IMG/VR virus record: IMGVR_UViG_3300023215_000864
Span: 1-25,251 of that record
Source: a virus
Direction: 5' to 3' (one strand)
DNA: 25,251 nt
Position numbers and translations under genes: made by a program. The notes below the pieces were generated by a model. The model saw only the letters and a program-made list of their open reading frames with translations, did no database searches and was not told where the DNA came from. Below, one piece after another: positions 4,253-23,067 of the stretch (the first letter of the stretch is position 1; every line of letters begins with the position of its first letter).

Positions 4253-4362
4253 AGAAGGCAAAGATATATTTGGTTTTGGTTATTGGTTTGTTAGGTGTGA
4301 TTGTTGCTGGTATTGATGGCATGGAAACCGTGTTGGAGGATTACTTTTTAGCGGATGGATAA
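4249..4362 (+). CDS. 37-residue single-pass membrane protein
   Basis: A GTG start at 4249 overlaps the preceding TGA (GTGA) and gives a 37-residue protein. After a KKAK basic start it has one hydrophobic stretch (IYLVLVIGLLGVIVAGI), then a short acidic tail ending ADG. There is no separate ribosome-binding site; translation is probably coupled. The next start lies inside its last codons. The position among holin-like genes suggests a lysis role such as a holin or pinholin accessory. Alternatively it could be a non-functional overlap ORF, but the tight spacing on both sides argues for a real gene. Confidence 0.45.
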   Translation: MKKAKIYLVLVIGLLGVIVAGIDGMETVLEDYFLADG

Positions 4363-12940: not shown

Positions 12941-13104
12941 ATCTCTCGTTTCAGATAGTCCAAGTCCTGAAGAGCTAAAGACAATAAGTGTCTCAAGTCC
13001 GTATCTCTCTCAGCGTCACTTTCCCTGGCTATTTTATGTGCCTTCTTCACCATAGAACAAATCACCTCTATCTTTTGATGTATCTGCTCTTGTGTGTGTA
13101 TCAT
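12937..13104 (-). CDS. Small helical protein, function unknown
   Basis: This 55-residue protein begins at ATG 13104, which overlaps the upstream TGA as ATGA, so it is coupled to the NinB-like gene. It is highly charged and entirely helical by appearance (HQKIEVICSMVKKAHKIARE, then LRHLLSLALQDLDYLKREI), with no membrane segment. It is the last gene of the minus-strand early operon. Nothing in it identifies a family. The start overlap and lack of stops support its being real. Confidence 0.55.
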   Translation of the reverse strand: MIHTQEQIHQKIEVICSMVKKAHKIARESDAERDTDLRHLLSLALQDLDYLKREI

Positions 13105-13517
13105 GTTCTTTTCCCCATAACTGCAAACTCATAGTCCGATCCGTGAGGTAGCCGATACCCTAAAAACTCATCAGCCCACATATCTACCTCACAAAGATAA
13201 TCAACAAACTCTGTAATATTTAATTTGGTTGTAGATTTTCGCTCTGAATACTCTTCATTTTCATACTCTGTCTTAACTAGGTCTAAGAACTTATGAGACA
13301 CTACGAGATGTACTGAGTCCTTATGCATTCCTAAATGTCTACCCAACAACCCCAACCAATACCAATATAAATTAGATTGAACCTGTGTTCTTCTAGGCTT
13401 ACCTTCAGTTATTTTTATTGTGGCCGTATCTACGTCTGGATTCTGAGTAAAGAACTCTGTAGATAATGCTTTAAAAGCATCTGCTTTAGGTTTCTCTCTG
13501 TGTATTATTCGGTGCAT
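13101..13517 (-). CDS. ninB: NinB-like recombination protein
   Basis: This 138-residue protein has an N-terminal strand region, then the phrase RRTQVQSNLYWYWLGLLGRH (about residues 47-66). This resembles the conserved core of NinB/Orf family proteins, where an R-x-x-x-Q-N-x-x-W/Y-type segment precedes an aromatic helix. Lambda NinB (Orf) binds ssDNA and SSB and aids recombination mediated by annealing proteins; this phage has such a system at 19544-20637. ATG 13517 was chosen; a longer form from TTG 13544 has GGGGA 8 bases upstream and is possible. It sits in a nin-like cluster with RusA and YbcO relatives. The family call is moderate. Confidence 0.55.
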   Translation of the reverse strand: MHRIIHREKPKADAFKALSTEFFTQNPDVDTATIKITEGKPRRTQVQSNLYWYWLGLLGRHLGMHKDSVHLVVSHKFLDLVKTEYENEEYSERKSTTKLNITEFVDYLCEVDMWADEFLGYRLPHGSDYEFAVMGKRT

Positions 13518-13566
13518 TTGGGTTCTCGTCCTTAAAGTCTCCAAACTTTTCGTCCCCGTCTAACAT
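13486..13566 (-). CDS. Possible 26-residue acidic peptide
   Basis: ATG 13566 opens a 26-codon frame rich in Asp, Glu and Asn (starting MLDGDEKFGD). It overlaps the beginning of the NinB-like gene by about 30 bases in another frame. It fills the gap between the 33-residue membrane peptide gene and the NinB-like gene. The ribosome-binding site is weak (GAAAG). It could instead be leader sequence for the NinB-like gene. Low certainty. Confidence 0.25.
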   Translation of the reverse strand: MLDGDEKFGDFKDENPNAPNNTQRET

Positions 13567-13590
13567 ATCATCTTTCTAGGTCAACTGCTA

Positions 13591-13692
13591 TCAAAGCCCA
13601 AACCAGTTGCCGATTATCATCAACAAAACAAACCCTACGAATACCACTAAGCTTGTCTTGTTCTTGACTAACTTCATCAGTTCATCTTTCAT
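13591..13692 (-). CDS. 33-residue single-pass membrane peptide
   Basis: ATG 13692 has a strong ribosome-binding site (AGGAG at 13699-13703). The product has a charged start (MKDELMKLVKNK) and one hydrophobic segment (TSLVVFVGFVLLMIIGNWFG), with almost nothing after it. It is in the early operon, not the lysis cassette, so a role such as superinfection exclusion or membrane targeting is as likely as lysis. No family can be named. The strong initiation signal makes it a credible gene despite its size. Confidence 0.5.
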   Translation of the reverse strand: MKDELMKLVKNKTSLVVFVGFVLLMIIGNWFGL

Positions 13693-13706
13693 CTTTAACT
13701 CCTATA

Positions 13707-13886
13707 TTAAATTTGTAACCAAGCCTGAAACTGCTTCTCTGTTGAGTAGTACCTGACAGCCTGGACAAGAGTAGCAAGAAGCTCCTCATCACCATCAAAC
13801 TTAGCATTTTCATAATCATTCATAAGGTGTCCCCTTACAAACTCATCAGCCCCATCTGGGGTAATCATAATTGACTCATCTTTCAT
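13707..13886 (-). CDS. Small acidic protein, function unknown
   Basis: A 59-residue protein with GGAG 6 bases before ATG 13886 and an ATGA overlap with the gene upstream. It is acidic (DESIMITPDGADEF, FDGDEELLATLV) and ends in an aromatic helix (VRYYSTEKQFQAWLQI). There is no membrane segment or metal motif. It belongs to the run of mini-genes between the YbcO-like nuclease and the NinB-like gene. Such genes in nin regions are often host-takeover or regulatory factors, but no function can be assigned. Confidence 0.55.
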   Translation of the reverse strand: MKDESIMITPDGADEFVRGHLMNDYENAKFDGDEELLATLVQAVRYYSTEKQFQAWLQI

Positions 13887-14011
13887 TTTCTTCTCCTGCT
13901 TTTGGTTAATTTCTGGCTGGCCTTTGTGAACGCCTTATCAGCAGACCAAAGCAACCACTTAATCCCAACTTTCTTAACCGCTGTGGCTGGGACTTTCCAC
14001 AACTTTTTCAT
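13883..14011 (-). CDS. Small basic protein, function unknown
   Basis: A 42-residue, strongly basic product: KKLWKVPATAVKKVGIKW at the start and a KSRRRK end, with an amphipathic middle. It starts at ATG 14011, six bases past the YbcO-like stop, with only a weak ribosome-binding site, and ends in an ATGA overlap with the next gene. The basic tail could bind nucleic acid or the membrane surface. Family not recognised. Confidence 0.45.
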   Translation of the reverse strand: MKKLWKVPATAVKKVGIKWLLWSADKAFTKASQKLTKSRRRK

Positions 14012-14016
14012 TAGAT

Positions 14017-14340
14017 TTACTTGCATTCGATAATTCCTTCTATAGCCATTAAGCTTATATAGGCAAAAGTGCCTCTGAGATGTTTAACTTCTATCCATTC
14101 TGGTGGTATAGGTGGGTCAGCTTGGGTTCTTCCATCTGCCAAATTGTGACAGTTGAAACATGCCGGACAGCCAAAATCTATGCCCCCTGCCCTATTCTTC
14201 ATGCCCATAGCTGATATACCCAAGTGGGCAAATACAGTTGTTTCATTTTCTCCACCCGATTGACAGTTCTCATCGAGATGTAAATAGCAACGAGACCCCT
14301 TTGCTAATTTTGTCATCTTGGATTGTTTTATTCTTCCCAC
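14017..14340 (-). CDS. YbcO/DUF1364-family putative nuclease
   Basis: This 107-residue protein matches the DUF1364 pattern: Cys18 and Cys26 in CYLHLDENC, an ETTVFAHL block (His39), then GMGMK-like AMGMK, and a C58-C61-C64-H65 cluster (GCPACFNCHNLADGR). Lambdoid YbcO proteins have an HNH-like zinc fold and are considered DNA nucleases of the nin region. GTG 14340 has an ideal GGAGG 7 bases upstream, lying inside the preceding gene with which it overlaps by 13 bases, so I prefer it over ATG 14316. Next to RusA and NinB relatives it probably processes recombination or replication intermediates. Confidence 0.8.
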   Translation of the reverse strand: MGRIKQSKMTKLAKGSRCYLHLDENCQSGGENETTVFAHLGISAMGMKNRAGGIDFGCPACFNCHNLADGRTQADPPIPPEWIEVKHLRGTFAYISLMAIEGIIECK

Positions 14341-14669
14341 TCTTCTTCCTCCATTATTAATTCTGCTTCTCGCATTTCTTGTTTAATTACTACTAATTTG
14401 TCATACACATAGGTATTGATCTGAGCCATAATTATGCTCTCTAAGGGGTATGAAAGGGGTATGTGGCGTACTTCTTGGTCTACCCCTACCGATGCCATTG
14501 CTAAGGCTTCTTTTCGGTACTTATCTCTTAGTGATTTAATGAGTTGTTCAACTGTTGCGAAGTAACCGTTTTGTCGTTCAGTTTTTCTTGTGTTGTCTTT
14601 TAATATCCAGTTGTAAGCATCTGCGCCAATTGAGAATCTATCATTAATTTTTATGTAGGGGTTTTTCAT
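14328..14669 (-). CDS. DnaB-adjacent phage protein, function unknown
   Basis: The protein has 113 residues and starts at ATG 14669, overlapping the DnaB TGA as ATGA. The N-terminus (YIKINDRFSIGADAYNWILK) looks like a small beta unit that many phage replication clusters encode. The rest is helical, with a KSLRDKYRKEALAMA helix and a very acidic end (EEEEWEE). The family is one I have seen near phage replication genes, but I cannot attach a function. The 3' end contains the GGAGG used by the nuclease gene. It probably takes part in replication or recombination. Confidence 0.55.
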   Translation of the reverse strand: MKNPYIKINDRFSIGADAYNWILKDNTRKTERQNGYFATVEQLIKSLRDKYRKEALAMASVGVDQEVRHIPLSYPLESIIMAQINTYVYDKLVVIKQEMREAELIMEEEEWEE

Positions 14670-15916
14670 AACACTATCTCCATGTCGGAGAACTTAGAAA
14701 TCTCTCCTTTAAAATTGAGTTGAATGTGCATACCAGATCCACCCATGCGATTCTTAACAATATGGACCTCAGCAATACCTGGACGCGTGGATAATTCTTT
14801 GGTGTAATAGTCATCTCTATAGAGCATAAGAATGATGTCGGCATCTTGCTCTATCTCACCTGAGCTTCTTAGGTCACTCATTTGTGGCTCTTTGTTATCC
14901 CTTTTTTCTACGCCTCGACTTAGCTGGGATAGGAGTAATACAGGCACACCTAGCTCTTTTGCAAAACCTCTTAACTCTCTGGTGATAGTTCCCAGTTCGG
15001 AAATCTCTCTGCCTTTGTCATACTTCATTATTTGCAGATAATCAATAACAATCATATCTAGGCCACGCTCTGTACTAGCAACCTTCCTTGAGTAGTTGAT
15101 GATGTCTTGAACTGACAAACCACTCTTATCAACAATATTGAGTTTCTTATTGCCAATATCTGCTAAAGCCTTGTAGTAACGGTCTTGCTCTCTATCCGAC
15201 ATCTTGTTCTTGTAAACATTTGGCAGTGGAACATTAGACTCAGCACTAGCCATCTTCATAGCTAAATCTTCTTGCTTCATCTCCAAGGAGAAAAATAAGA
15301 CGTTATTCTCATCTGCAATATGAGAGGCTATATTCAAGACAAAAGTTGACTTACCCATAGCTGGCCTTGCAGCAATAACAGTTAATGTCCCTGCTTTAAA
15401 TCCATTGGTTTGATAATCCAAAGCACGAAATCCAGAGTAGATACCGGTACGCCCTTCTGCGATCTCCTCCATATAATCAATGGTCTTAGCCACAACAGAC
15501 TTCATTGAGGTTTCATCTGAGCTTTCTAACTCTTCTTGCAGATAAGCTATCTCAGCACTTACTTTGTTAAAGTTATCGTAGGTAATGCTTCGCTTTAAAT
15601 TTTCAATCCTGGACTTGAGTGAGGTGGATCGGATATGTTTGGCATAGACACCGATATTAGATACAGTGGGTGTACTATCTGCAATAGAAGCTAAGTAGTT
15701 AAAGTCAATGTCCTTACCTTTTGTATGATTTTTAACGGTAAGAATGTCAATCTTCTGCTTATCATTGTGCATTCCAACAATCTCATCAAAGACTTTGCCT
15801 AATGTTTGATTGCTGAAGTCGGATGACTGGAGACCTGTTGCCAAGACTTTATCAACAACAGGATCTATCATCAAGCCACCTACTACAGACTCTTCTGACT
15901 CAATAGTTGTAATCAT
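14666..15916 (-). CDS. dnaB: Replicative DNA helicase DnaB
   Basis: The 416-residue protein is slightly shorter than host DnaB (about 450-470). The N-terminal domain begins ESEESVVGGLMIDP. The RecA-like domain carries Walker A ARPAMGKST (183-191), FFSLEM (208-213), Walker B MIVIDYLQI (288-296), QLSR (331-334) and DLRSSGEIEQDAD (348-360), all intact. It would form the hexameric 5'-3' fork helicase, loaded by the upstream O-like protein. The start overlaps that gene by ATGA. Coding its own helicase means the phage need not take over host DnaB. Confidence 0.95.
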   Translation of the reverse strand: MITTIESEESVVGGLMIDPVVDKVLATGLQSSDFSNQTLGKVFDEIVGMHNDKQKIDILTVKNHTKGKDIDFNYLASIADSTPTVSNIGVYAKHIRSTSLKSRIENLKRSITYDNFNKVSAEIAYLQEELESSDETSMKSVVAKTIDYMEEIAEGRTGIYSGFRALDYQTNGFKAGTLTVIAARPAMGKSTFVLNIASHIADENNVLFFSLEMKQEDLAMKMASAESNVPLPNVYKNKMSDREQDRYYKALADIGNKKLNIVDKSGLSVQDIINYSRKVASTERGLDMIVIDYLQIMKYDKGREISELGTITRELRGFAKELGVPVLLLSQLSRGVEKRDNKEPQMSDLRSSGEIEQDADIILMLYRDDYYTKELSTRPGIAEVHIVKNRMGGSGMHIQLNFKGEISKFSDMEIVL

Positions 15917-16602
15917 GCTATATCCTCCATTGTGAATAGTTTGGAACTTGGTTGTTTGTTTGATTGTGCTTCTCCCATCTCCCAGTTACGGTTATTAATG
16001 AAAGTTTGCAAATGAGGGACATATTGTTCGTCAGTGACACCCAGCCATGACAAGGTTGGATTAATCATCTCCAAGGTGTTTAATACCTCTTCCCAATCTT
16101 TGTGTTTGGTTATGAAGTTTTTAAACTCGGTTTCACAGCCTCTTTTCTTTCCTAGGTATTTGGATCTAAACACTTCAAATTGTTTCATTTGTGTAGAAAT
16201 ATCTTTCTCTTTAATACTCTCTTTCTCTTTAATACTCTCTTCCTCTTTAATGTAGGTTACATTTCCGCATCTGCGGGTTTCCGCACCTGCGGAAAACGCA
16301 CTTACGGGAGAATGGTAGACGTGGAAGTGGTTTCCGGTGAATTGGTTGTTGTCATTCTTGTGAAAAATGACATCATACAAACCTAACTCTTTTAGCTCTT
16401 TCATGGCCTTCTGATATTTACGTTGACCAATGGCAAAATGTTTTCTGATATGAGACTCGATAACATCCCAGTCCTCAGCCTGTGATTGCAGATAAACCCA
16501 GATAGCCAAGGCAATTGGATTGGTGATTGATTGCACCACTTCCCTACTCACCATGTCATAAGGGATTTGGTCCTGATGCTTCTTGAGCTTAATGATCGGC
16601 AT
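15913..16602 (-). CDS. O-like replication initiator/helicase loader
   Basis: The protein has 229 residues. Residues about 1-85 look like a winged helix typical of phage O/RepL-type proteins (PYDMVSREVVQSITNPIALA, then IGQRKYQKAMKELKELGLYD). A low-complexity charged linker repeats ESIKEKE (about 118-135), and the C-terminal part (FEVFRSKYLGKKRGCETEF) resembles DnaD/DnaT-like helicase-contact domains. It overlaps RusA upstream by 14 bases and dnaB downstream by ATGA. The linker-coding DNA contains iterons and an 18-bp tandem repeat, as in lambda O where ori lies inside the gene. Predicted role: bind ori and deliver DnaB. Confidence 0.7.
   Translation of the reverse strand: MPIIKLKKHQDQIPYDMVSREVVQSITNPIALAIWVYLQSQAEDWDVIESHIRKHFAIGQRKYQKAMKELKELGLYDVIFHKNDNNQFTGNHFHVYHSPVSAFSAGAETRRCGNVTYIKEEESIKEKESIKEKDISTQMKQFEVFRSKYLGKKRGCETEFKNFITKHKDWEEVLNTLEMINPTLSWLGVTDEQYVPHLQTFINNRNWEMGEAQSNKQPSSKLFTMEDIA
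16204..16307 (-). other. Candidate lambda-type replication origin inside the O-like gene
   Basis: Two direct copies of TTTCCGCAYCTGCGG (16262-16276 and 16278-16292), each with inverted arms CCGCA/TGCGG, are followed by a degenerate third (16293-16307). Beside them is an 18-bp tandem repeat TTTCTCTTTAATACTCTC (16204-16221, 16222-16239, partial to 16251) that is nearly all pyrimidine on this strand. Iterons next to a purine/pyrimidine-asymmetric AT-rich stretch inside the initiator gene is the architecture of lambda ori. Function is inferred. Confidence 0.55.
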
Positions 16603-17002
16603 GACAGTCTTCTCTAGGCACTAACTCTATTAACTCAACTACCGCATGATTCTCATCAGCAAAGCCACCAAAACAACTAGAGAAACCAAGTAGATATTCA
16701 TAGTTGTCATCTTCAATCACCCCACCCTTTACCAGTGCATCCATCAGGAACTTTTGCAAAGGAATGGTGTAATTATCTAAATCCTTTTTTCTTTTATTGT
16801 TAAAGAAAATCTTGTAACAGACATGCAACCTTTTAAACTTGGGTAATGTTTTTACCCAGTCACCCAATACATCGTTTTGGTAGTTTTGTTTGGCGGTGTT
16901 GAGAGAGAAATAGTGCATATTTCTCATAATGTTGTAGCTCAATAATAAGACCTTGCCACGTTTGGTGTAGGTTGGAAGTGCAATAATTGCCTTATGCATC
17001 AT
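16589..17002 (-). CDS. rusA: RusA-like Holliday junction resolvase
   Basis: The 137-residue protein has the RusA fold signature: KKDLDNY (D74, D76), a K84...D88 helix (LQKFLMDALVKGG), and EDDN (D98-D99) for metal binding. These acidic residues bind the catalytic metals in E. coli RusA. It would cut four-way junctions made during replication or annealing recombination. It is the first gene of the minus-strand operon, where lambda would have cro. Two consecutive ATGs exist (17002 and 16999). GGA lies about 11 bases upstream of the first. Expression should come from the promoter at 17137-17165. Confidence 0.85.
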   Translation of the reverse strand: MMHKAIIALPTYTKRGKVLLLSYNIMRNMHYFSLNTAKQNYQNDVLGDWVKTLPKFKRLHVCYKIFFNNKRKKDLDNYTIPLQKFLMDALVKGGVIEDDNYEYLLGFSSCFGGFADENHAVVELIELVPREDCHADH

Positions 17003-17123
17003 TAAGTATTTCCGTTACTCTTGCTAGGGTAATCATCAATACATACTCCAGTCATTTAACTTTTATCATTTTTGTGTTATAATTTGCACGGTAAATTAAC
17101 ATGGTGGTAAAACGTGTTTCTTT

Positions 17124-17138
17124 TTGAACTTAGTCTAT
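17124..17138 (+). promoter_or_regulatory. Operator-like site oR-a
   Basis: TTGAACTTAGTCTAT. It shares TTGAAC-N3-GTCTAT with the site at 17708-17722 (13 of 15 bases identical) and the TTGAAC-N3-GT core with the inverted site at 17143-17157. It touches the -10 of the minus-strand promoter. Probable binding site of the XRE repressor. Confidence 0.5.
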
Positions 17139-17165
17139 TATATTCAACTTTGTTCAATATAGCAA
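17137..17165 (-). promoter_or_regulatory. pR-like promoter for the replication operon
   Basis: Read on the minus strand, TTGCTA (17165-17160) and TATAAT (17142-17137) are 17 bases apart. This is a good sigma70 promoter pointing at rusA, with a leader of about 130 bases. The spacer is filled by an operator-like repeat (17143-17157), and a second repeat lies just downstream of the -10, so the repressor encoded at 17191 probably shuts it. Confidence 0.6.
17143..17157 (-). promoter_or_regulatory. Operator-like site oR-b
   Basis: On the minus strand it reads TTGAACAAAGTTGAA, a near-palindrome of half-site TTGAAC (5 of 6 matches in the second arm). It lies entirely within the 17-bp spacer of the pR-like promoter. 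Its centre is 19 bp from that of oR-a. Confidence 0.5.
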
Positions 17166-17190
17166 CACTATTTTAGTTTAATATTGGAAT

Positions 17191-17568
17191 ATGATGAGTT
17201 TAGCTGAGAGAGTGAAAAAAACCCGTTTAGAGAAGGAGTTGACCCAATCGGAATTGGCCTCAATGCTGGGCATGTCATATCACAATATTCAAAACCTAGA
17301 AAAAGGAAGGATTCAGACCTGCCGCTATATCGACAGACTGGCAACAGCATTAGACACTACAAGAAATTATCTGCTTGTTGGTGAAAAAGCTAAAGTGATT
17401 AAAGTCGATAAACCAATCAACCTAATTTCAGTCGATAATTCATTTGAATTCAAACCCGACTGTGACTACCATATTGTCGAAACTCCGCAAAATAAGACAT
17501 TATTTTTAACTTCTGACTCAAAGGAAGTTGCCAGTGTCTCACAGATGTTTATTCAAAAAATACGCTAA
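17191..17568 (+). CDS. XRE-family repressor (cI-like, no peptidase domain)
   Basis: The 125-residue protein has an HTH_XRE domain at residues about 5-62 (RVKKTRLEKELTQSELASML, then HNIQNLEKGRIQ) and a short, probably beta-rich C-terminal part. There is no S24/LexA-type Ser-Lys autopeptidase, so classical RecA-triggered self-cleavage is not expected; induction would need an antirepressor or another mechanism. It is transcribed away from the replication operon and beside operator-like repeats, the position of a lysogeny repressor. A possible -10 TTTAAT (17177-17182) is only 8 bases before the ATG, so the message may be leaderless as for lambda cI; otherwise GGA serves ATG 17194. Confidence 0.75.
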   Translation: MMSLAERVKKTRLEKELTQSELASMLGMSYHNIQNLEKGRIQTCRYIDRLATALDTTRNYLLVGEKAKVIKVDKPINLISVDNSFEFKPDCDYHIVETPQNKTLFLTSDSKEVASVSQMFIQKIR

Positions 17569-17588
17569 CTACAAATAACTTGTAGTTA
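17566..17588. repeat. Inverted repeat at the repressor stop codon
   Basis: TAACTACAA and TTGTAGTTA form a 9-bp perfect stem with a 5-base loop, beginning at the repressor TAA. No T-run follows on either strand, so it is not a simple intrinsic terminator. It may stabilise mRNA ends or bind a protein. Confidence 0.4.
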
Positions 17589-17628
17589 TTCCAAAAAAAG
17601 TTGGAGTTCATTAGCCATATCAAATAGA

Positions 17629-17661
17629 CTGGCTCTATAGCATGGTTTCTCTGGCTCTATA
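17629..17661. repeat. Two CTGGCTCTATA direct repeats, 22 bp apart
   Basis: CTGGCTCTATA occurs at 17629-17639 and 17651-17661, two helical turns apart and just upstream of the promoter at 17680. The first copy is also part of a palindrome ATAGA-CTGGC-TCTAT (17624-17638). The position suits an activator or co-regulator of the pL-like promoter. The rest of the 17569-17789 gap shows no gene. Confidence 0.4.
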
Positions 17662-17679
17662 AATAGTTTAAAATAACAC

Positions 17680-17708
17680 TTGCACTTAATAAGACTTTTA
17701 GGTATATT
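17680..17708 (+). promoter_or_regulatory. pL-like promoter
   Basis: TTGCAC (17680-17685) and TATATT (17703-17708) are separated by exactly 17 bases, a strong sigma70 match. Transcription would begin near 17715, inside the operator-like site, and run into the 17790 gene with a leader of about 75 bases. Confidence 0.6.
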
Positions 17709-17722
17709 TGAACTATGTCTAT
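17708..17722 (+). promoter_or_regulatory. Operator-like site oL
   Basis: TTGAACTATGTCTAT differs from oR-a at two of 15 bases and overlaps the last base of the -10 and the start point of the pL-like promoter. It links this promoter to the same repressor as the divergent region. Confidence 0.5.
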
Positions 17723-17789
17723 CGCAATAAACAATAACAGTTATTTAAAAAACCAATACAAGACGAATTAATAATATAAGGGGAAGCAA

Positions 17790-18127: not shown

Positions 18128-18153
18128 AGCCAGACATACGCTCTGGCTTTTTT
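18128..18153 (+). terminator. Intrinsic terminator after the 17790 gene
   Basis: AGCCAGA (18128-18134) pairs with TCTGGCT (18142-18148) around a 7-base loop, followed by a run of six T. It lies 11 bases after the stop at 18116. It corresponds to tL1 in the lambda-like layout. Confidence 0.85.
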
Positions 18154-18176: not shown

Positions 18177-18228
18177 TTAATACGTATTAATGAATATATG
18201 TACATTTCGTTGTATATTAGTGTATTAT
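18177..18228 (+). promoter_or_regulatory. Promoter/operator region of the recombination operon
   Basis: TTAATACGTATTAA (18177-18190) is a perfect 14-bp palindrome. Downstream, TGTACA (18199-18204) and TATTAT (18223-18228) are 18 bases apart and could be a promoter for the gene at 18278. The palindrome would be upstream of it. The TGTACA element is itself palindromic, so it may instead be a second protein site. Confidence 0.4.
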
Positions 18229-18277: not shown

Positions 18278-18601
18278 ATGACACAACTAGAAAATCACAT
18301 GGTATTGCCCCACCCTACTCCGTCCGAGTGGGAAGGCGATGCACCCGAAATCACAACTGAGCTTCTGTATGAGGCTTGGGATAACTTTAGCGAATTAAAT
18401 AAGTCCGATATGGATTATCTTTCAAACGTTAAACGATACCAAACAGCCTTATTCGATCCACTTACGCCTTTCTTAAAAGAGTCCATTCAAAAGCGAGTGG
18501 AAACTTTCAACGATCTTTTTGATAACTCAGAGTCTTTTGAGTTTGATGGTATGGATGTTGATTTGAGAGTCTTTGTATACCAATGGTGGGTATCGCTATG
18601 A
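18278..18601 (+). CDS. Acidic phage protein, function unknown
   Basis: The 107-residue protein has GGAGAG 4 bases before its ATG. It is rich in Asp, Glu, Trp and Phe (for example PSEWEGDAPEITTELLYEAW and SFEFDGMDVDLRVFVYQWW), overall acidic and probably helical. No motif is recognised. It is the first gene after the palindromic region, and its TGA overlaps the next start as ATGA, making it the head of a plus-strand operon that ends with the AlpA-like gene. Confidence 0.6.
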   Translation: MTQLENHMVLPHPTPSEWEGDAPEITTELLYEAWDNFSELNKSDMDYLSNVKRYQTALFDPLTPFLKESIQKRVETFNDLFDNSESFEFDGMDVDLRVFVYQWWVSL

Positions 18602-18690
18602 ACAAAGAGTTTATTGGTGAGGTTTTGCAAGGTGTGATTTTTCTAGTTGCTTTATTTTCTTTGCTTATCCTAGGAGTCGCAATCGCATGA
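18598..18690 (+). CDS. 30-residue single-pass membrane peptide
   Basis: ATG 18598 overlaps the stop of the gene before it and its TGA overlaps the gene after it (ATGA on both sides). After MNKEFIGEV it has one hydrophobic segment (LQGVIFLVALFSLLILGVAI) reaching the C-terminus. It supplies an AGGAG for the next gene. An early-expressed membrane peptide could act in superinfection exclusion or host membrane control; there is no direct evidence. The overlaps on both sides make it likely to be real. Confidence 0.5.
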   Translation: MNKEFIGEVLQGVIFLVALFSLLILGVAIA

Positions 18691-18917
18691 ATATCGTAAC
18701 AAAATTAAATCGTAAAGAATACCTAAATGACAAACAGAAACTTTCACCTGCCTATGTAATTGGGTGGTTAGCAGCTGAATCTAACGGCTGTGAAGCTATC
18801 AGCGCAGACCCTAAAACAATGTATTACTACGAACAAGGCTATAACGACTGCAAGTCCAACGAATGGACTATCAGCGGTATTTCATCCAATGTATCTGATG
18901 AGGAGCAAAGCGCATGA
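18687..18917 (+). CDS. Small phage protein, function unknown
   Basis: The 76-residue protein is coupled on both sides by ATGA. It has a basic start (TKLNRKEYLNDKQK), a central helix (SPAYVIGWLAAESNGCEAIS) and a tyrosine-rich YYYEQGYNDCKSN segment, with an acidic C-terminus. The two Cys are not in a metal-binding arrangement. I do not recognise the family. Its neighbours suggest an accessory early function. Confidence 0.55.
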   Translation: MNIVTKLNRKEYLNDKQKLSPAYVIGWLAAESNGCEAISADPKTMYYYEQGYNDCKSNEWTISGISSNVSDEEQSA

Positions 18918-19099
18918 AAAGGAAACGCTATATTGTAGAAATTGACTTATTTGTTTGGGCTGATTCAGATGACCAGGCTAGACAAGAAGCATTGGCATCT
19001 ACCAAGAAGTTTGAAGATGCTAATGATGCAAAAGTCCACCAATTACATGAAGCGCCTTGGGGAATAAAAGAGGCTAGAAAGGTGGAACTTAATGATTAA
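18914..19099 (+). CDS. Small ferredoxin-fold-like protein, function unknown
   Basis: A 61-residue protein starting at an ATGA overlap. A strand KRYIVEIDLFVWAD is followed by a helix SDDQARQEALAS and a second strand region. This strand-helix-strand order, with an A-D/N-S-x-x-x-A helix start, is common in tiny phage proteins annotated only as hypothetical. There is no enzymatic motif. It ends shortly before the 55-residue gene, with a short AT-rich spacer carrying GGAGAG. Confidence 0.55.
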   Translation: MKRKRYIVEIDLFVWADSDDQARQEALASTKKFEDANDAKVHQLHEAPWGIKEARKVELND

Positions 19100-19117
19100 C
19101 GATGGAGAGATAACAAA

Positions 19118-19285
19118 ATGCAAATTACTACTAAAGAAAAGTACGACATAAGTGTAAATGGTGATCACCTTGAACAGATTAGTCACTCAGACTTACTAGA
19201 TATTATCACGGTGTATATCCTTGAGATGAGTCCAGAAATTGGATTAATTGATGATGACGAAGTAGAGATTGACAACGCTAATTAG
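19118..19285 (+). CDS. 55-residue acidic protein, function unknown
   Basis: ATG 19118 has GGAGA at 19104-19108, 9 bases upstream. The product opens with strands (QITTKEKYDISVNGDHL), has a helix (ISHSDLLDIITVYILEM), and ends strongly acidic (DDDEVEIDNAN). The leader ATGGAGAGATAACAAAATG resembles that of the next gene, suggesting a repeated translation-initiation cassette. No family is recognised. Confidence 0.5.
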   Translation: MQITTKEKYDISVNGDHLEQISHSDLLDIITVYILEMSPEIGLIDDDEVEIDNAN

Positions 19286-19308
19286 TCTTAATAACAATGG
19301 AGAAAGAC

Positions 19309-19554
19309 ATGAAAAATATAAGTAATGATGATGGCTTTGCTAGATTCAAAAAGGCTTTTGAAGGTCTCACAGAACAAGCAAGTAGCATGGATGAGATGAA
19401 TAACATTAAAGCAATGTCAGATGAGTATTTTGTTCTAAAAAGAAAGATGTGCGGAATGATGACACATGAAGATGCTTTCCAAATGGTTAAAGATATTTTA
19501 CGACCTGTTGAATTTCTAGCCGAACCTACTATGGAGGTGAGTGATGAGCAATAA
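19309..19554 (+). CDS. Helical protein upstream of the annealing protein, function unknown
   Basis: I place the start at ATG 19309 because GGAG (19299-19302) lies 6 bases upstream; the earlier in-frame ATG at 19297 overlaps that GGAG. The product has 81 residues, is helical and rich in Met and acidic residues (DGFARFKKAFEGLTEQASSM). It overlaps the Sak-type gene by 11 bases and contains its GGAGG ribosome-binding site. A partner or regulator of the recombination genes is possible by position only. Confidence 0.55.
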   Translation: MKNISNDDGFARFKKAFEGLTEQASSMDEMNNIKAMSDEYFVLKRKMCGMMTHEDAFQMVKDILRPVEFLAEPTMEVSDEQ

Positions 19555-20179
19555 AAAGAAATCAGTCTTTGAAACTCTTAACGCAATTGATGTTAATGAG
19601 CATACAGATCAAAAAGGCAATTTAACTTACCTATCGTGGGCGTGGGCTTGGCAAACAACTAAGCAGAACTACCCAGAAGCGTTCTACACAGTATATGAGA
19701 ACGAGATGGGTTACATCTATCACCATGACAACAGAACCGCTTGGGTAAAAACTGGGGTCACTATAGAGGGGCTTGAGCATATCGAGAACCTGCCTGTTTT
19801 GAACTACCAGAACAAGTCTATTCCTGTTGATTCGCTTACCTCGTTTGACATTAATACAGCCATCCAACGTAGCTTAACAAAAGCTATCGCTAGACATGGA
19901 CTTGGTTTGTATCTCTACATGGGTGAGACAGAACCTGATACACCTGTATGGGATGATTCTGAACAAAAGGATCGTTACGTTGAAGAAATCACACAACATT
20001 GCGCTGATGAAAAAGACAATAAGGCGGTCAAACTCTATCGTGAGATGGGTAAGCAAAAGAACAAGGTCAGAGGAACAAAACAAGCTACACAGGTGTGGAG
20101 TTCGCTTGACCCAGCAACACAGCGTTATTTGAAAAACGCTTTAAGTGAGAAGAAAACCGCAGAGAAAGTATCAGCATAG
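19544..20179 (+). CDS. Sak/DUF1071-family single-strand annealing protein
   Basis: The 211-residue protein has the DUF1071 core: GNLTYLSWAWAWQTTKQNYP (about residues 26-45), GVTIEGLEHIENLPVLNYQN (about 70-90) and TSFDINTAIQRSLTKAIARH followed by GLGLYLYMGE (about 97-125). The family (Sak3 type) binds ssDNA and pairs complementary strands in phage recombination, with replication or end repair as likely uses. GGAGG with a 6-base spacer favours ATG 19544 over GTG 19541. The C-terminal part is helical and basic (KKTAEKVSA). An SSB-like gene lies downstream, as is usual for annealing modules. No exonuclease is seen. Confidence 0.9.
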   Translation: MSNKKKSVFETLNAIDVNEHTDQKGNLTYLSWAWAWQTTKQNYPEAFYTVYENEMGYIYHHDNRTAWVKTGVTIEGLEHIENLPVLNYQNKSIPVDSLTSFDINTAIQRSLTKAIARHGLGLYLYMGETEPDTPVWDDSEQKDRYVEEITQHCADEKDNKAVKLYREMGKQKNKVRGTKQATQVWSSLDPATQRYLKNALSEKKTAEKVSA

Positions 20180-20225
20180 GAATCTCCTTACGCCATACCT
20201 GGGGCGTTAATGCTAGGTGTGTGTT

Positions 20226-20322
20226 TGCCAGTACACATATGATGAAAACTGGCACCAAATTAGATGCTTGTGAAAAGAATTAATGTGACAAGTGTCAATC
20301 GCAAGCCAGAGCGTTATCTGGC
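20226..20322 (+). other. Structured leader with three inverted repeats
   Basis: Between the annealing and SSB-like genes lie TGCCAGT/ACTGGCA (20226-20232 with 20248-20254), TGACA-AG-TGTCA (20286-20297) and GCCAGA/TCTGGC (20305-20322). None is followed by a T-run. GCCAG in the first hairpin and in the third could also pair with the opposite CTGGC arms, giving alternative structures. This may control expression of the SSB-like gene. Confidence 0.4.
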
Positions 20323-20356
20323 ATCAAATTATACAAAGCCTGGAGGGCGAAAATGA
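20264..20356 (+). CDS. Possible 30-residue basic peptide
   Basis: ATG 20264 opens a frame whose TGA overlaps the next ATG as ATGA. The product is basic (starting MLVKRINVTSVNRKPERYLA, ending PGGRK). There is no convincing ribosome-binding site, and internal GTG starts (20270, 20285) are alternatives. It overlaps the structured leader, so it could be a leader peptide. The ATGA overlap is its main support. Confidence 0.3.
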   Translation: MLVKRINVTSVNRKPERYLASNYTKPGGRK

Positions 20357-20637
20357 GTGATCAAAAAGAAGTTGAATTTGTAGATGGGTTGAGAATTATG
20401 GAGCCAAGTCCAAACAGCCCAGATTTTATCAAAGCCAGAATTTCAATCAAGAGAAAAGACCTTGGAAACTGGTTAAGATCCAAAGAAGATGATTGGATTA
20501 ACGTAGATGTTAAAGTCTCTCGTGGTGGTAAGTGGTATTGTGCGGTAGACAACTGGAAGCCCGAACCAAGTCAAAATAGTGGGATACCGACGATGCCACA
20601 AAACAACCCAGACTCTGGTGATGATATTCCCTGGTAA
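20353..20637 (+). CDS. SSB-like protein with acidic C-terminal tip
   Basis: The 94-residue protein has GGAGGG 6 bases upstream of the ATG. It has a compact strand-rich body (FVDGLRIMEP, ARISIKRKDLGNWL, WINVDVKVSRGGKWYCAVDN) and a disordered Pro/Asn/Ser tail ending SGDDIPW. That ending mimics the DDDIPF tip with which SSB recruits partner proteins. The body does not look like a full OB-fold SSB (about 110 residues plus tail), so it may be a small phage ssDNA-binding protein or a decoy for SSB partners. It follows the annealing protein and overlaps the next gene (TAATG). Confidence 0.6.
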   Translation: MSDQKEVEFVDGLRIMEPSPNSPDFIKARISIKRKDLGNWLRSKEDDWINVDVKVSRGGKWYCAVDNWKPEPSQNSGIPTMPQNNPDSGDDIPW

Positions 20638-20960
20638 TGGCATATAAGAAAAAAGGTCCCAAGGTGTACACACTTCAGTGTGGTATGAAAGTCACTGCCG
20701 ATATGGTGGTAAAAAAAACTTCCGTTAAACGTGGGACCGCAAGAAGGCGGCTACAGCGTTCTGACACATACGAGCTTATCTTTGCCCCTAAAAGTAAAAA
20801 GGTTGGCCATATATACGCCAAGAATCAGAATCCCGATAAAAAGATAGATAACCCAAGAGTTCGTAAATCCAAGTATAGGGCCGCCCTTGAGAAACGCATC
20901 ATAGCCACCCAGCCTTTTTATAACGATCCAATGTACCGATTAGCATTAATAGCAATATAG
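20637..20960 (+). CDS. Very basic protein, possible DNA-binding
   Basis: A 107-residue, strongly basic protein, overlapping the SSB-like gene by TAATG. The centre (MVVKKTSVKRGTARRRLQRS, about residues 21-40) reads like a helix-turn-helix with an Arg-rich recognition helix. The following DTYELIFAPKSKK strand and the basic NPRVRKSKYRAALEKR helix suggest nucleic-acid binding. It lies just before the AlpA-like gene. A transcription regulator or a recombination accessory would fit; no family is recognised. Confidence 0.5.
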   Translation: MAYKKKGPKVYTLQCGMKVTADMVVKKTSVKRGTARRRLQRSDTYELIFAPKSKKVGHIYAKNQNPDKKIDNPRVRKSKYRAALEKRIIATQPFYNDPMYRLALIAI

Positions 20961-20969
20961 GATAATATT

Positions 20970-21152
20970 ATGAGTAAATTAATTAGAATGGAGCAAGTCA
21001 GAGAGATAACCACCCTAAGTGCAACAACAATATATAGAAAGATTGCCGCTGGTGATTTTCCTAAACAACTCAAACTAACTAATAAGACTTGCGCCTGGGT
21101 TGAGCAAGAGATTCACGACTTTGTAGAAAGAAAGATTTTAGAGCGAACCTAA
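20970..21152 (+). CDS. AlpA/Xis-like DNA-binding regulator
   Basis: This 60-residue protein matches the AlpA/MerR-type winged-helix pattern: LIRMEQVREITTLSATTIYR (helix-turn-helix), then AAGDFPKQLKLTNKTCAWVE and a C-terminal helix (EIHDFVERKI). In P4-like elements AlpA relatives activate int transcription or act as excisionase. AGGA at 20960-20963 lies 6 bases upstream of the ATG. It is the last gene before the attachment site and integrase, which supports an Xis role: bending attP DNA and setting the direction of recombination. Confidence 0.85.
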   Translation: MSKLIRMEQVREITTLSATTIYRKIAAGDFPKQLKLTNKTCAWVEQEIHDFVERKILERT

Positions 21153-21171
21153 ATATAACACTGAATATGAT

Positions 21172-21196
21172 AGCCCCCTTAATTGGGGGTTTTTTT
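21172..21196 (+). terminator. Intrinsic terminator after the AlpA-like gene
   Basis: CCCCC (21174-21178) and GGGGG (21185-21189) pair around TTAATT, with extra A-T and G-T pairs below and seven T after. It separates the early operon from attP and int, so int needs its own promoter or antitermination. Confidence 0.85.
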
Positions 21197-21215
21197 GCGT
21201 TTCTTAGGGGTAAAA

Positions 21216-21244
21216 ATGGGGTACAGTATGGGGTATTTAAAATC
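21216..21244. repeat. Integrase arm-type repeat, left of the att core
   Basis: ATGGGGTA (21216-21223), then ATGGGGTATTTAAAATC (21228-21244). The same pair recurs at 21457-21484. A further GGGGTA is at 21207-21212. GGGGTA motifs in tandem near tRNA-targeted P4-type integrases are typical arm sites (from general knowledge). Confidence 0.6.
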
Positions 21245-21276
21245 GTTTTTATAGTTGAAAACCTCTACAGGCTTAG

Positions 21277-21317
21277 TGGTGCGTCCGACAGGAGTCGAAC
21301 CTGCGACATTTGGCTTC
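21277..21317 (-). other. Attachment-site core (attP) derived from a tRNA 3' end
   Basis: On the minus strand this reads as the 3' part of a tRNA. There are the tail of an anticodon loop (GAA), stem GCCAA, variable ATGTC, T stem-loop GCAGG-TTCGACT-CCTGT, acceptor strand CGGACGC, discriminator A and CCA. The matching 5' half is absent, so it is not a tRNA gene. The acceptor and loop fit a bacterial tRNA-Arg, anticodon ACG being most likely. It lies between two arm-type repeats and next to int, as expected for attP. Confidence 0.75.
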
Positions 21318-21456
21318 AATGTACTGTGTTGAATTATATAACACTGACACGCTCACTAAAATCCTCTTGTATCAAGCATTTATAAGTCATTCTCATTTTT
21401 TCTAACAAGGCTTACGCACCAGAAAGAACCTTATTATTCTCACAATCCCGATATAA

Positions 21457-21484
21457 ATGGGGTATTATTGGGGTATTTAAAATC
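21457..21484. repeat. Integrase arm-type repeat, right of the att core
   Basis: ATGGGGTA (21457-21464) followed by TGGGGTATTTAAAATC (21469-21484), the same arrangement as at 21216-21244 with one base less between elements. It ends 14 bases before the int ATG, so binding here could also repress int. Confidence 0.6.
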
Positions 21485-21498
21485 ATTTCTTGGTTATT

Positions 21499-23067
21499 AT
21501 GCAAGTTAAATTAACAAACCTTTATATTAAAAACTTAAAAGCAGAAGCAACAGTGTGGCGAGTCATGGACTCTATCACAAAGTCATTTTATGTTGAGGTT
21601 AGACCTAAGAGTAAAAAAAATCCAGACAAGCCAATTTTAAAAACTTATCAATATCGTTGGAGATATAATTCTAAGGCGTTTGGAAAGGGAGATACCTATC
21701 TTCGTATTAATGATGTGAATTATATATCACTTGAAGATGCTAGGGAAGAAGCTAGGAAGTGTCATAAATCTGCCAAAGCTGGCAACGATCCTAGACTGGT
21801 ACTCAACCAAGTAGTTAAAAGTGATGGTGATAATACTCTTACTGAGATGTTTAAAGGTAGCTTTAAAGGCCGCACAGGCTTTTTCCCCGAAGAGTTTAAC
21901 CCTAAGATTGATGGGTTTGTTGATAGCTATAAACTTGCATCAGCCATAGATAACGATAAAGTAGGCTTAACAACTGCCAGTGATATGAAGTCAAGAGTTG
22001 AAAGGTATTTGCTACCTGCTTTAGGTGGGTGTGATGTCAGAAAGATCACTCCTAATGACCTTGTAAGGGTCATTAAAACCATTAAACCTATAATCAAAAC
22101 AGGCAAAGATGGAGAAAAATACACCTGCCACAGGTTCAGTGTAAGAGATAAGTTATATCAAGACATGCAGTACATATTCAATTACGCACAAGGCGAATTT
22201 CCTGAAATGCTATATTCTCCCACCCAAGGTGTTGACATGAAGCAGCTTACTAAAGGTTCTGCCATTGTAAAAACACACAGGGTTAGTACAATCGATATAG
22301 ATGGAATTCAGACAATTATGTGGAAAATCTGTAGTCATATCACCACATCAACTAGAATGTCTTGGCAAATGAAGGTCGCTACATTGGCTTTAGCTTTGAC
22401 TCATTTAAGACCAAAAGAATTAACTGGCCTTAGATGGGAAGAAGTAGACTTTAATAAGGGTTTAATCGATATTCCTGGCATATATGAGCCGCACACACAA
22501 AAGCCAGAAAGACGGATGAAAATGGGCTTGGACCACATTGTGCCAATGAGTAGGCAATTACATGGTTTATTAAAGTACGCTAAAGTGTGCAGCAAGAAAG
22601 AGGGAATTGTTTCTAGGTATGTTTTTCCTTCGTCTACAAAGTACAGTAAAAAGAATTTGAGGGTTTTCAACGAAGATGGCACAGAATATATAGATAAATG
22701 TATTTCTATTTCTGGTTTAGAGGATGCATTAAAAAGAATGGGAGTCTGTAATAAAACCGAATTAACACCGCACGGCTGGAGGGCAATGGCATCGACTTCA
22801 TTAAATGGTGGGTTAGTAATTAATGATATAAAGAAAGACTATGAATCCAAGTGGATAGAAGTGGCGCTGTCTCATAGTTCGATTAAAAAGGAAGATGGTG
22901 GAGCAATGGCAAAGCCTTATAATCGTGCAAAATATCTCCCCGAAAGAATCAGAATGGCACAAGATTGGACTGATTTTCTTGAAGGCTTTATGCTGACGGC
23001 CCCGTCAATTAAATCGACATCATTACAAAGTCTTGATAACCTCATATATAGAGGGTTAGATATATAG
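21499..23067 (+). CDS. int: Tyrosine-recombinase integrase (P4-like)
   Basis: This 522-residue protein is longer than the usual 390-450. The N-terminal arm-binding domain (about 1-100) has SFYVEVRP and the EDAREEARKCHKSAKAGNDP motif of DUF4102 integrases. A core-binding helical domain follows, with extra residues around 105-190. Catalytic residues are R304 (HLRPKEL), H425 and R428 (HGWR), H459 (LSHSS) and Y479 (AKYLPER), all present. ATG 21499 is preferred to TTG 21490, though the ribosome-binding site is weak. It should recombine the 21277-21317 core with a host tRNA. Its last codons fall inside a TATATAGAGGGTTAGA repeat. Confidence 0.93.
   Translation: MQVKLTNLYIKNLKAEATVWRVMDSITKSFYVEVRPKSKKNPDKPILKTYQYRWRYNSKAFGKGDTYLRINDVNYISLEDAREEARKCHKSAKAGNDPRLVLNQVVKSDGDNTLTEMFKGSFKGRTGFFPEEFNPKIDGFVDSYKLASAIDNDKVGLTTASDMKSRVERYLLPALGGCDVRKITPNDLVRVIKTIKPIIKTGKDGEKYTCHRFSVRDKLYQDMQYIFNYAQGEFPEMLYSPTQGVDMKQLTKGSAIVKTHRVSTIDIDGIQTIMWKICSHITTSTRMSWQMKVATLALALTHLRPKELTGLRWEEVDFNKGLIDIPGIYEPHTQKPERRMKMGLDHIVPMSRQLHGLLKYAKVCSKKEGIVSRYVFPSSTKYSKKNLRVFNEDGTEYIDKCISISGLEDALKRMGVCNKTELTPHGWRAMASTSLNGGLVINDIKKDYESKWIEVALSHSSIKKEDGGAMAKPYNRAKYLPERIRMAQDWTDFLEGFMLTAPSIKSTSLQSLDNLIYRGLDI

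Follow-up and report, generated by a model that had tools for sequence, protein, structure and literature searches.

The 25,251-base linear virus record analyzed here, referred to below as the window, carries a gene for a CI/Cro-type HTH regulator (the XRE gene) between two early gene sets and raises the question of whether a single repressor acts on the promoters of both sets through one family of operators. The rightward early region includes genes for an integrase and an AlpA-like excisionase, and the phage is therefore temperate. A sequence-only reading had proposed that three 15-mers sharing the pattern TTGAAC-N3-GT-Y-N-A form one operator family at a pR-like promoter of the replication operon and at a pL-like promoter of another early operon, and that the whole is a lambda-like immunity circuit. 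The features of the region are listed in Table 1.

Table 1. Features of the early region, with positions given in the window unless another phage is named
Feature	Position	Strand	Remarks
Replication operon (RusA-like resolvase, replication initiation protein, DnaB helicase, phrog_154 replication protein, YbcO/HNH nuclease, NinB)	13101..17002	-	Leftward
Probable repressor promoter, TTTAAC-17 (or TTAACT-16)-TATAAT	17055..17083	+	TGn extended -10; second-best match in the whole-window scan
Inverted arms, GTGTTKCTWTWTTGAACWWAGT	17114..17168 (L004 186-243)		Around the pR-like -10; contain W1 and W2
Putative operator W1, TTGAACTTAGTCTAT	17124..17138	+	On the last 2 bases of the pR-like -10 and on the expected start near 17130
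pR-like promoter, TTGCTA-17-TATAAT	17137..17165 (17165-17137)	-	Serves the leftward replication operon; matrix scan, kept in relatives
Putative operator W2, TTGAACAAAGTTGAA	17143..17157	-	Fills most of the pR-like promoter spacer
XRE repressor candidate, 125 residues	17194..17568	+	434-CI-like HTH; recognition helix SYHNIQNLE
pL-like promoter, TTGCAC-17-TATATT	17680..17708	+	Matrix scan score 10.2
Putative operator W3, TTGAACTATGTCTAT	17708..17722	+	Covers the start point; overlaps the last base of the pL-like -10
First gene after the pL-like promoter, 108 aa	17790..18116	+	GTG start after AAGGGG
Intrinsic terminator, AGCCAGACATACGCTCTGGCT-TTTTT	18128..18153	+	After the 108-aa gene; same stem and T-run in L004 (1063-1087)
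Rest of the rightward early region	18278..23067	+	Starts with small genes
Sak annealing protein	19541-20179	+
AlpA-like excisionase	20970-21152	+
Integrase	21490-23067	+

The three 15-mers, W1, W2 and W3, were confirmed in position and strand, and so was their placement on the promoters. W2, described as lying in the spacer of a sigma70 promoter for the replication operon, is wholly inside the 17-bp spacer; W1, described as abutting the -10 element, overlaps its last 2 bases; and W3 is on the start point of a 17-bp-spaced promoter, as proposed. The pR-like promoter is the top sigma70 match in the whole window by our matrix scan, and the score of the pL-like promoter is average, not outstanding. 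The sites can be summarized by the 15-bp consensus TTSAAC-WWW-RT-N4, with two copies on the leftward replication promoter (19 bp apart, centre to centre) and one on the rightward promoter. Extra operators were not found in either region, the next best distinct matches scoring 4.8 (left) and 6.5 (pL-like region) vs 14.5–19.6 for W1–W3. All three sites are weak palindromes (2–5 of 7 positions symmetric), so that the true recognition unit and its register are unsure.

The pattern TTGAAC-N3-GT-Y-N-A is post hoc, having been written from W1, W2 and W3 themselves. Scanned across the window, it matched three times, only at these sites, against an expectation of 0.18 ± 0.44 (none of 100 shuffles reached three), and the reversed control pattern gave no match; the coding DNA is thus not equally rich in the motif. 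W1 and W3 agree at 13 of 15 bases, but an equally similar pair of 15-mers was obtained in 88 of 300 dinucleotide shuffles of the two AT-rich intergenic regions when no pattern was assumed, and the similarity of W1–W3 by itself is within chance. In all three phages compared (the window and the relatives introduced below), unbiased tests of 12- and 15-mer pairs between the left and right regions likewise gave no significant result, so the finding cannot rest on the likeness of W1 and W3. With a post hoc motif and a chance-level likeness, the sites needed independent evidence, and significance comes only from the comparison with one related phage, L004.

Syntenic relatives of the locus were taken from IMG/VR: L004, whose XRE protein is 52% identical and has the same recognition helix as that of the window, and the pair L101/L102, with 37% identity and a different helix (PYQSIQNVE). 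The motif is carried by just one close relative, L004, and when the left operator block was used for a DNA pattern scan, only the L004 contig matched. Other IMG/VR relatives of the RusA-like gene (L005–L021) were rejected as syntenic loci, having other neighbouring genes and no XRE match. The left blocks of the window and L004 share 21 identical bases (GTGTTTCTTTTTGAACTTAGT), whereas the longest shared run in 100 shuffle pairs was 12. This run includes TTGAACTTAGT of W1 (L004 196-206), and the equivalent of W2 in L004 is TTCAACTAAATGCGT (229-215, minus strand), again 19 bp from the W1 equivalent between centres; the outer halves of the left sites differ (GTGCGA/ATGCGT in L004 vs GTCTAT/GTTGAA in the window). 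The pR-like promoter has counterparts in L004 (TTGCTA-16-TATAAT, 237-210) and L101 (TGTACA-17-TATAAT, 3869-3841). The pL-like promoter corresponds to TACACA-17-TATAAT (639-667) in L004 and, at the same place in L101, to the strong TTGCAA-17-TATAAT (4283-4311).

Whether W3 belongs with W1 and W2 is the point on which the most serious competing explanation turns. It holds that only the two left sites are true XRE operators, that the match at 17708 is a chance occurrence in AT-rich DNA or a gene-start remnant, and that the pL-like promoter lies outside repressor control. The shuffling result for W1 and W3 fits this explanation, as does the absence from W3 of the outer GTGTTKCTWTW arm. W3 also shares bases with ATGTCTATCGCAATAAAC (MSIAIN), which is in the reading frame of the 108-aa gene and resembles the start of the first gene in L004 (MSIAVN), so that part of W3 could reflect coding descent. 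However, a matrix built from the four left sites of the window and L004, with no pL-like site included, ranked W3 first in the rest of the 25-kb window (0/434 other windows reach its score; P = 0.0047 in dinucleotide shuffles of the W3 region). The same test over 13.2 kb of L004 ranked TTGAAATTAATGTGT (654-640, minus strand) first outside the left sites (P = 0.0063), inside the L004 pL-like promoter. Both sites are exactly on the promoter, and Fisher's method combines the two P values to about 3e-4 (hand calculation). L004 thus has equivalents of all three sites, and we consider independent chance matches or gene remnants an unlikely account of W3. Matrices made from one phage work only within their own phage and find the pL-like site of the other poorly (P = 0.49 for the window-only matrix and P = 0.065 for the L004-only matrix), as would follow from drift of the outer half-site along with each repressor.

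The pair L101/L102 keeps the genes and both promoters, and the motif is absent from both regions (left P = 0.79, right P = 0.23). Across these three phages only, the pattern is the one expected if repressor–operator pairs change together. The L004 comparison and the absence of the motif in L101/L102 make one operator family on both early promoters likely, by sequence and with modest statistics from two phages, and support the claim of the sequence-only reading on this point. We estimate a probability of about 0.8 that the region is a temperate-phage immunity region in which a 434-repressor-like XRE protein has shared operators on both early promoters, and we infer that this protein binds all three sites as a dimer.

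The assignment of the repressor draws on comparisons of its HTH domain. The gene probably starts at the ATG at 17194 rather than at the listed ATG at 17191, judging from alignment with the starts of its relatives. The closest solved structure to the N-terminal 65 residues is the CI repressor of phage 434 (PDB, E = 6.5e-16), and searches of named phages with the XRE protein returned 434-type N-domains only. Pfam and PHROGs match the HTH domain alone, with no S24/LexA-type cleavage domain recognized, and the AlphaFold model has a good HTH and a low-confidence C-terminal part that is too uncertain for a fold search. The XRE protein and a 107-aa protein gave nothing useful against the genome collection (one 19-residue match in Streptomyces, L103), and the 107-aa and 76-aa neighbour proteins have no relatives among named phages. 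A perfect 9-bp inverted repeat (TAACTACAA/TTGTAGTTA, 17566-17588) spans the XRE stop codon and is not followed by a T-run; no clear terminator was seen between the XRE gene and the pL-like region.

The short length of this protein and its lack of an S24 peptidase domain would also suit a Cro-like or autoregulatory minor regulator, with the main repressor encoded elsewhere or off the contig (the 25-kb linear record may be incomplete) and the sites serving to turn down early genes rather than to confer immunity. Such a role is less probable still than a chance origin of W3. The closest solved relative is 434 CI; as with cI, the gene has an early promoter on either side and its transcription leads away from the replication genes. 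Apart from it, only the AlpA-like protein gave an HTH match in the early region, and the related phages have, by inspection, one XRE-type gene at this place. A Cro-like gene was not found: the first gene of the leftward operon is RusA-like, and there is no second XRE-type HTH among the early-region genes searched.

If the XRE protein occupies the shared operators as proposed, W1 and W2 would jointly block RNA polymerase at the pR-like promoter, where the spacer, the -10 element and the start would be covered, and W3 would block the pL-like promoter at its start point, so that both early regions would be silent in the lysogen. The repressor gene itself is probably driven by the promoter upstream of W1, of which TTTGTGTTAYAATT is kept in L004; an acceptable plus-strand promoter was not found by consensus scan between 17124 and 17194, and the repressor promoter was not recognized in L101. 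In the window and L004 alike, the repressor promoter faces the pR-like promoter at a distance of 54 bp between -10 elements (17083 to 17137; L004 156 to 210), and the predicted starts at about 17090 (rightward) and 17130 (leftward) imply two transcripts overlapping by about 40 bp. Interference would be expected from this overlapping, head-on arrangement of the repressor and early lytic promoters; in phage 186, interference of pR on pL has been described (PMC7708051). Transcription of the XRE gene would most likely run against the pR-like promoter, and repression of the latter would, as in phage 186, relieve the collision and so promote expression of the repressor itself. Alternatively, W1 and W2, lying in the repressor leader, may act as a roadblock that limits XRE expression.

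The inverted arms around the pR-like -10 have outer 10 bases that are identical in the window and L004; neither the pL-like sites nor L101 have these bases, and the left outer arm is not explained by any role as promoter or operator. The arms (GTGTTKCTWTWTTGAAC) are kept in L004, and their predicted folds are somewhat better than shuffles (z-scores from -1.8 to -3.1). It is very improbable that they act as a hairpin in the leader of the repressor mRNA, or as a cruciform, and not as operators: the inner-arm difference between the window and L004 (GTTC to GTTG) breaks a stem pair with no compensation, the region scores within the shuffled range as an ungapped inverted repeat, and at the pL-like promoters a single copy of the motif occurs, with no partner arm.

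What W3 would control appears narrower at first than the other early operon of the sequence-only reading: the pL-like promoter is followed by just one 108-aa gene and then a conserved terminator, and a promoter-like site precedes the next gene in all three phages (window 18199-18228, L004 1123-1151, L101 4615-4644). Since the terminator directly follows the 108-aa gene, control by W3 may be largely confined to this gene, barring read-through or antitermination. The product of the gene belongs to no known family in Pfam or PHROGs and gave no relatives by pattern search; its positional relatives are 92 aa (L004, 30% identity) and 77 aa (L101) long. That it antiterminates, by analogy with lambda N before its terminator, is only an idea. 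An 18-codon ORF (MSIAINNNSYLKNQYKTN, 17715-17771) has its start within W3, reads in the frame of the 108-aa gene and may encode a leader peptide or mark a former gene start. Upstream of the pL-like promoter, an exact 11-bp direct repeat (CTGGCTCTATA) is present at 17629-17639 and 17651-17661, 22 bp (two helical turns) apart and ending 19 bp before the -35 element; it has no further copies in the window and none in L004 or L102, and is possibly an activator site.

Among known switches, that of phage 434 shares with this locus the type of repressor HTH, the repressor gene between the replication and the recombination/integration promoters, and one operator family at both. The 434 operator is a 14-bp ACAA-N6-TTGT site, whereas the sites here are 15-bp, weakly symmetric and of the form TTSAAC-N3-RT; the recognition helix also differs (TQQSIEQLE in 434), the operators number two plus one, and no Cro gene or cleavable C-domain was found. 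In lambda, the replication promoter, the repressor gene and the operator and promoter on the recombination/int side follow in this order, with a terminator after the first pL gene. The window has the mirror image of this layout, together with the terminator after the first pL-like gene. Unlike lambda and 434, it has two and one operators instead of three at each of OR and OL. No Cro, pRM over the operators or CII-type gene was recognized, and the conserved repressor promoter points towards the pR-like promoter instead of diverging from it across the operators. The proposal of a lambda-like immunity circuit therefore stands for the layout and not for the Cro-like gene, pRM-like promoter over the operators, cleavable repressor domain and triple operators.

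With phages 186 and P2, the locus shares a predicted repressor promoter placed head-on to the early lytic promoter and overlapping it, the 54-bp distance being found also in L004. Its repressor is closest by sequence, among solved structures, to 434 CI. Past the repressor gene there is a further early promoter that carries an operator, which sets the locus apart, and neither a CII nor an Apl of the 186 type was recognized here. The layout is thus a mirror image of lambda/434, by the features tested it is not the lambda switch proper, and the convergent promoters recall 186.

The locus may, tentatively and with less than even probability, be read as a minimal switch operating in the absence of Cro, in which a non-cleavable 125-residue 434-type repressor would hold both early promoters through only three operators, bistability arising from collision between the facing repressor and replication promoters instead of Cro and pRM. 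Such a switch would combine the arrangement of lambda with the logic of 186. If this were true, the locus would be a compact system for studying lysogeny with no lambda parts; if it fails, what is left is ordinary temperate-phage biology. The locus is very probably an ordinary dormancy switch of a temperate phage, of an already known kind. An uncultured phage lineage gains a readable immunity region, and the three related phages offer a small natural test in which recognition helix and operators change together. In the leftward promoter of L101/L102, a near-perfect palindrome (ATTTGTACACAAAT, L101 3861-3874) has ACAA/TTGT halves like those of the 434 operator and is a candidate operator for the PYQSIQN-type repressor.
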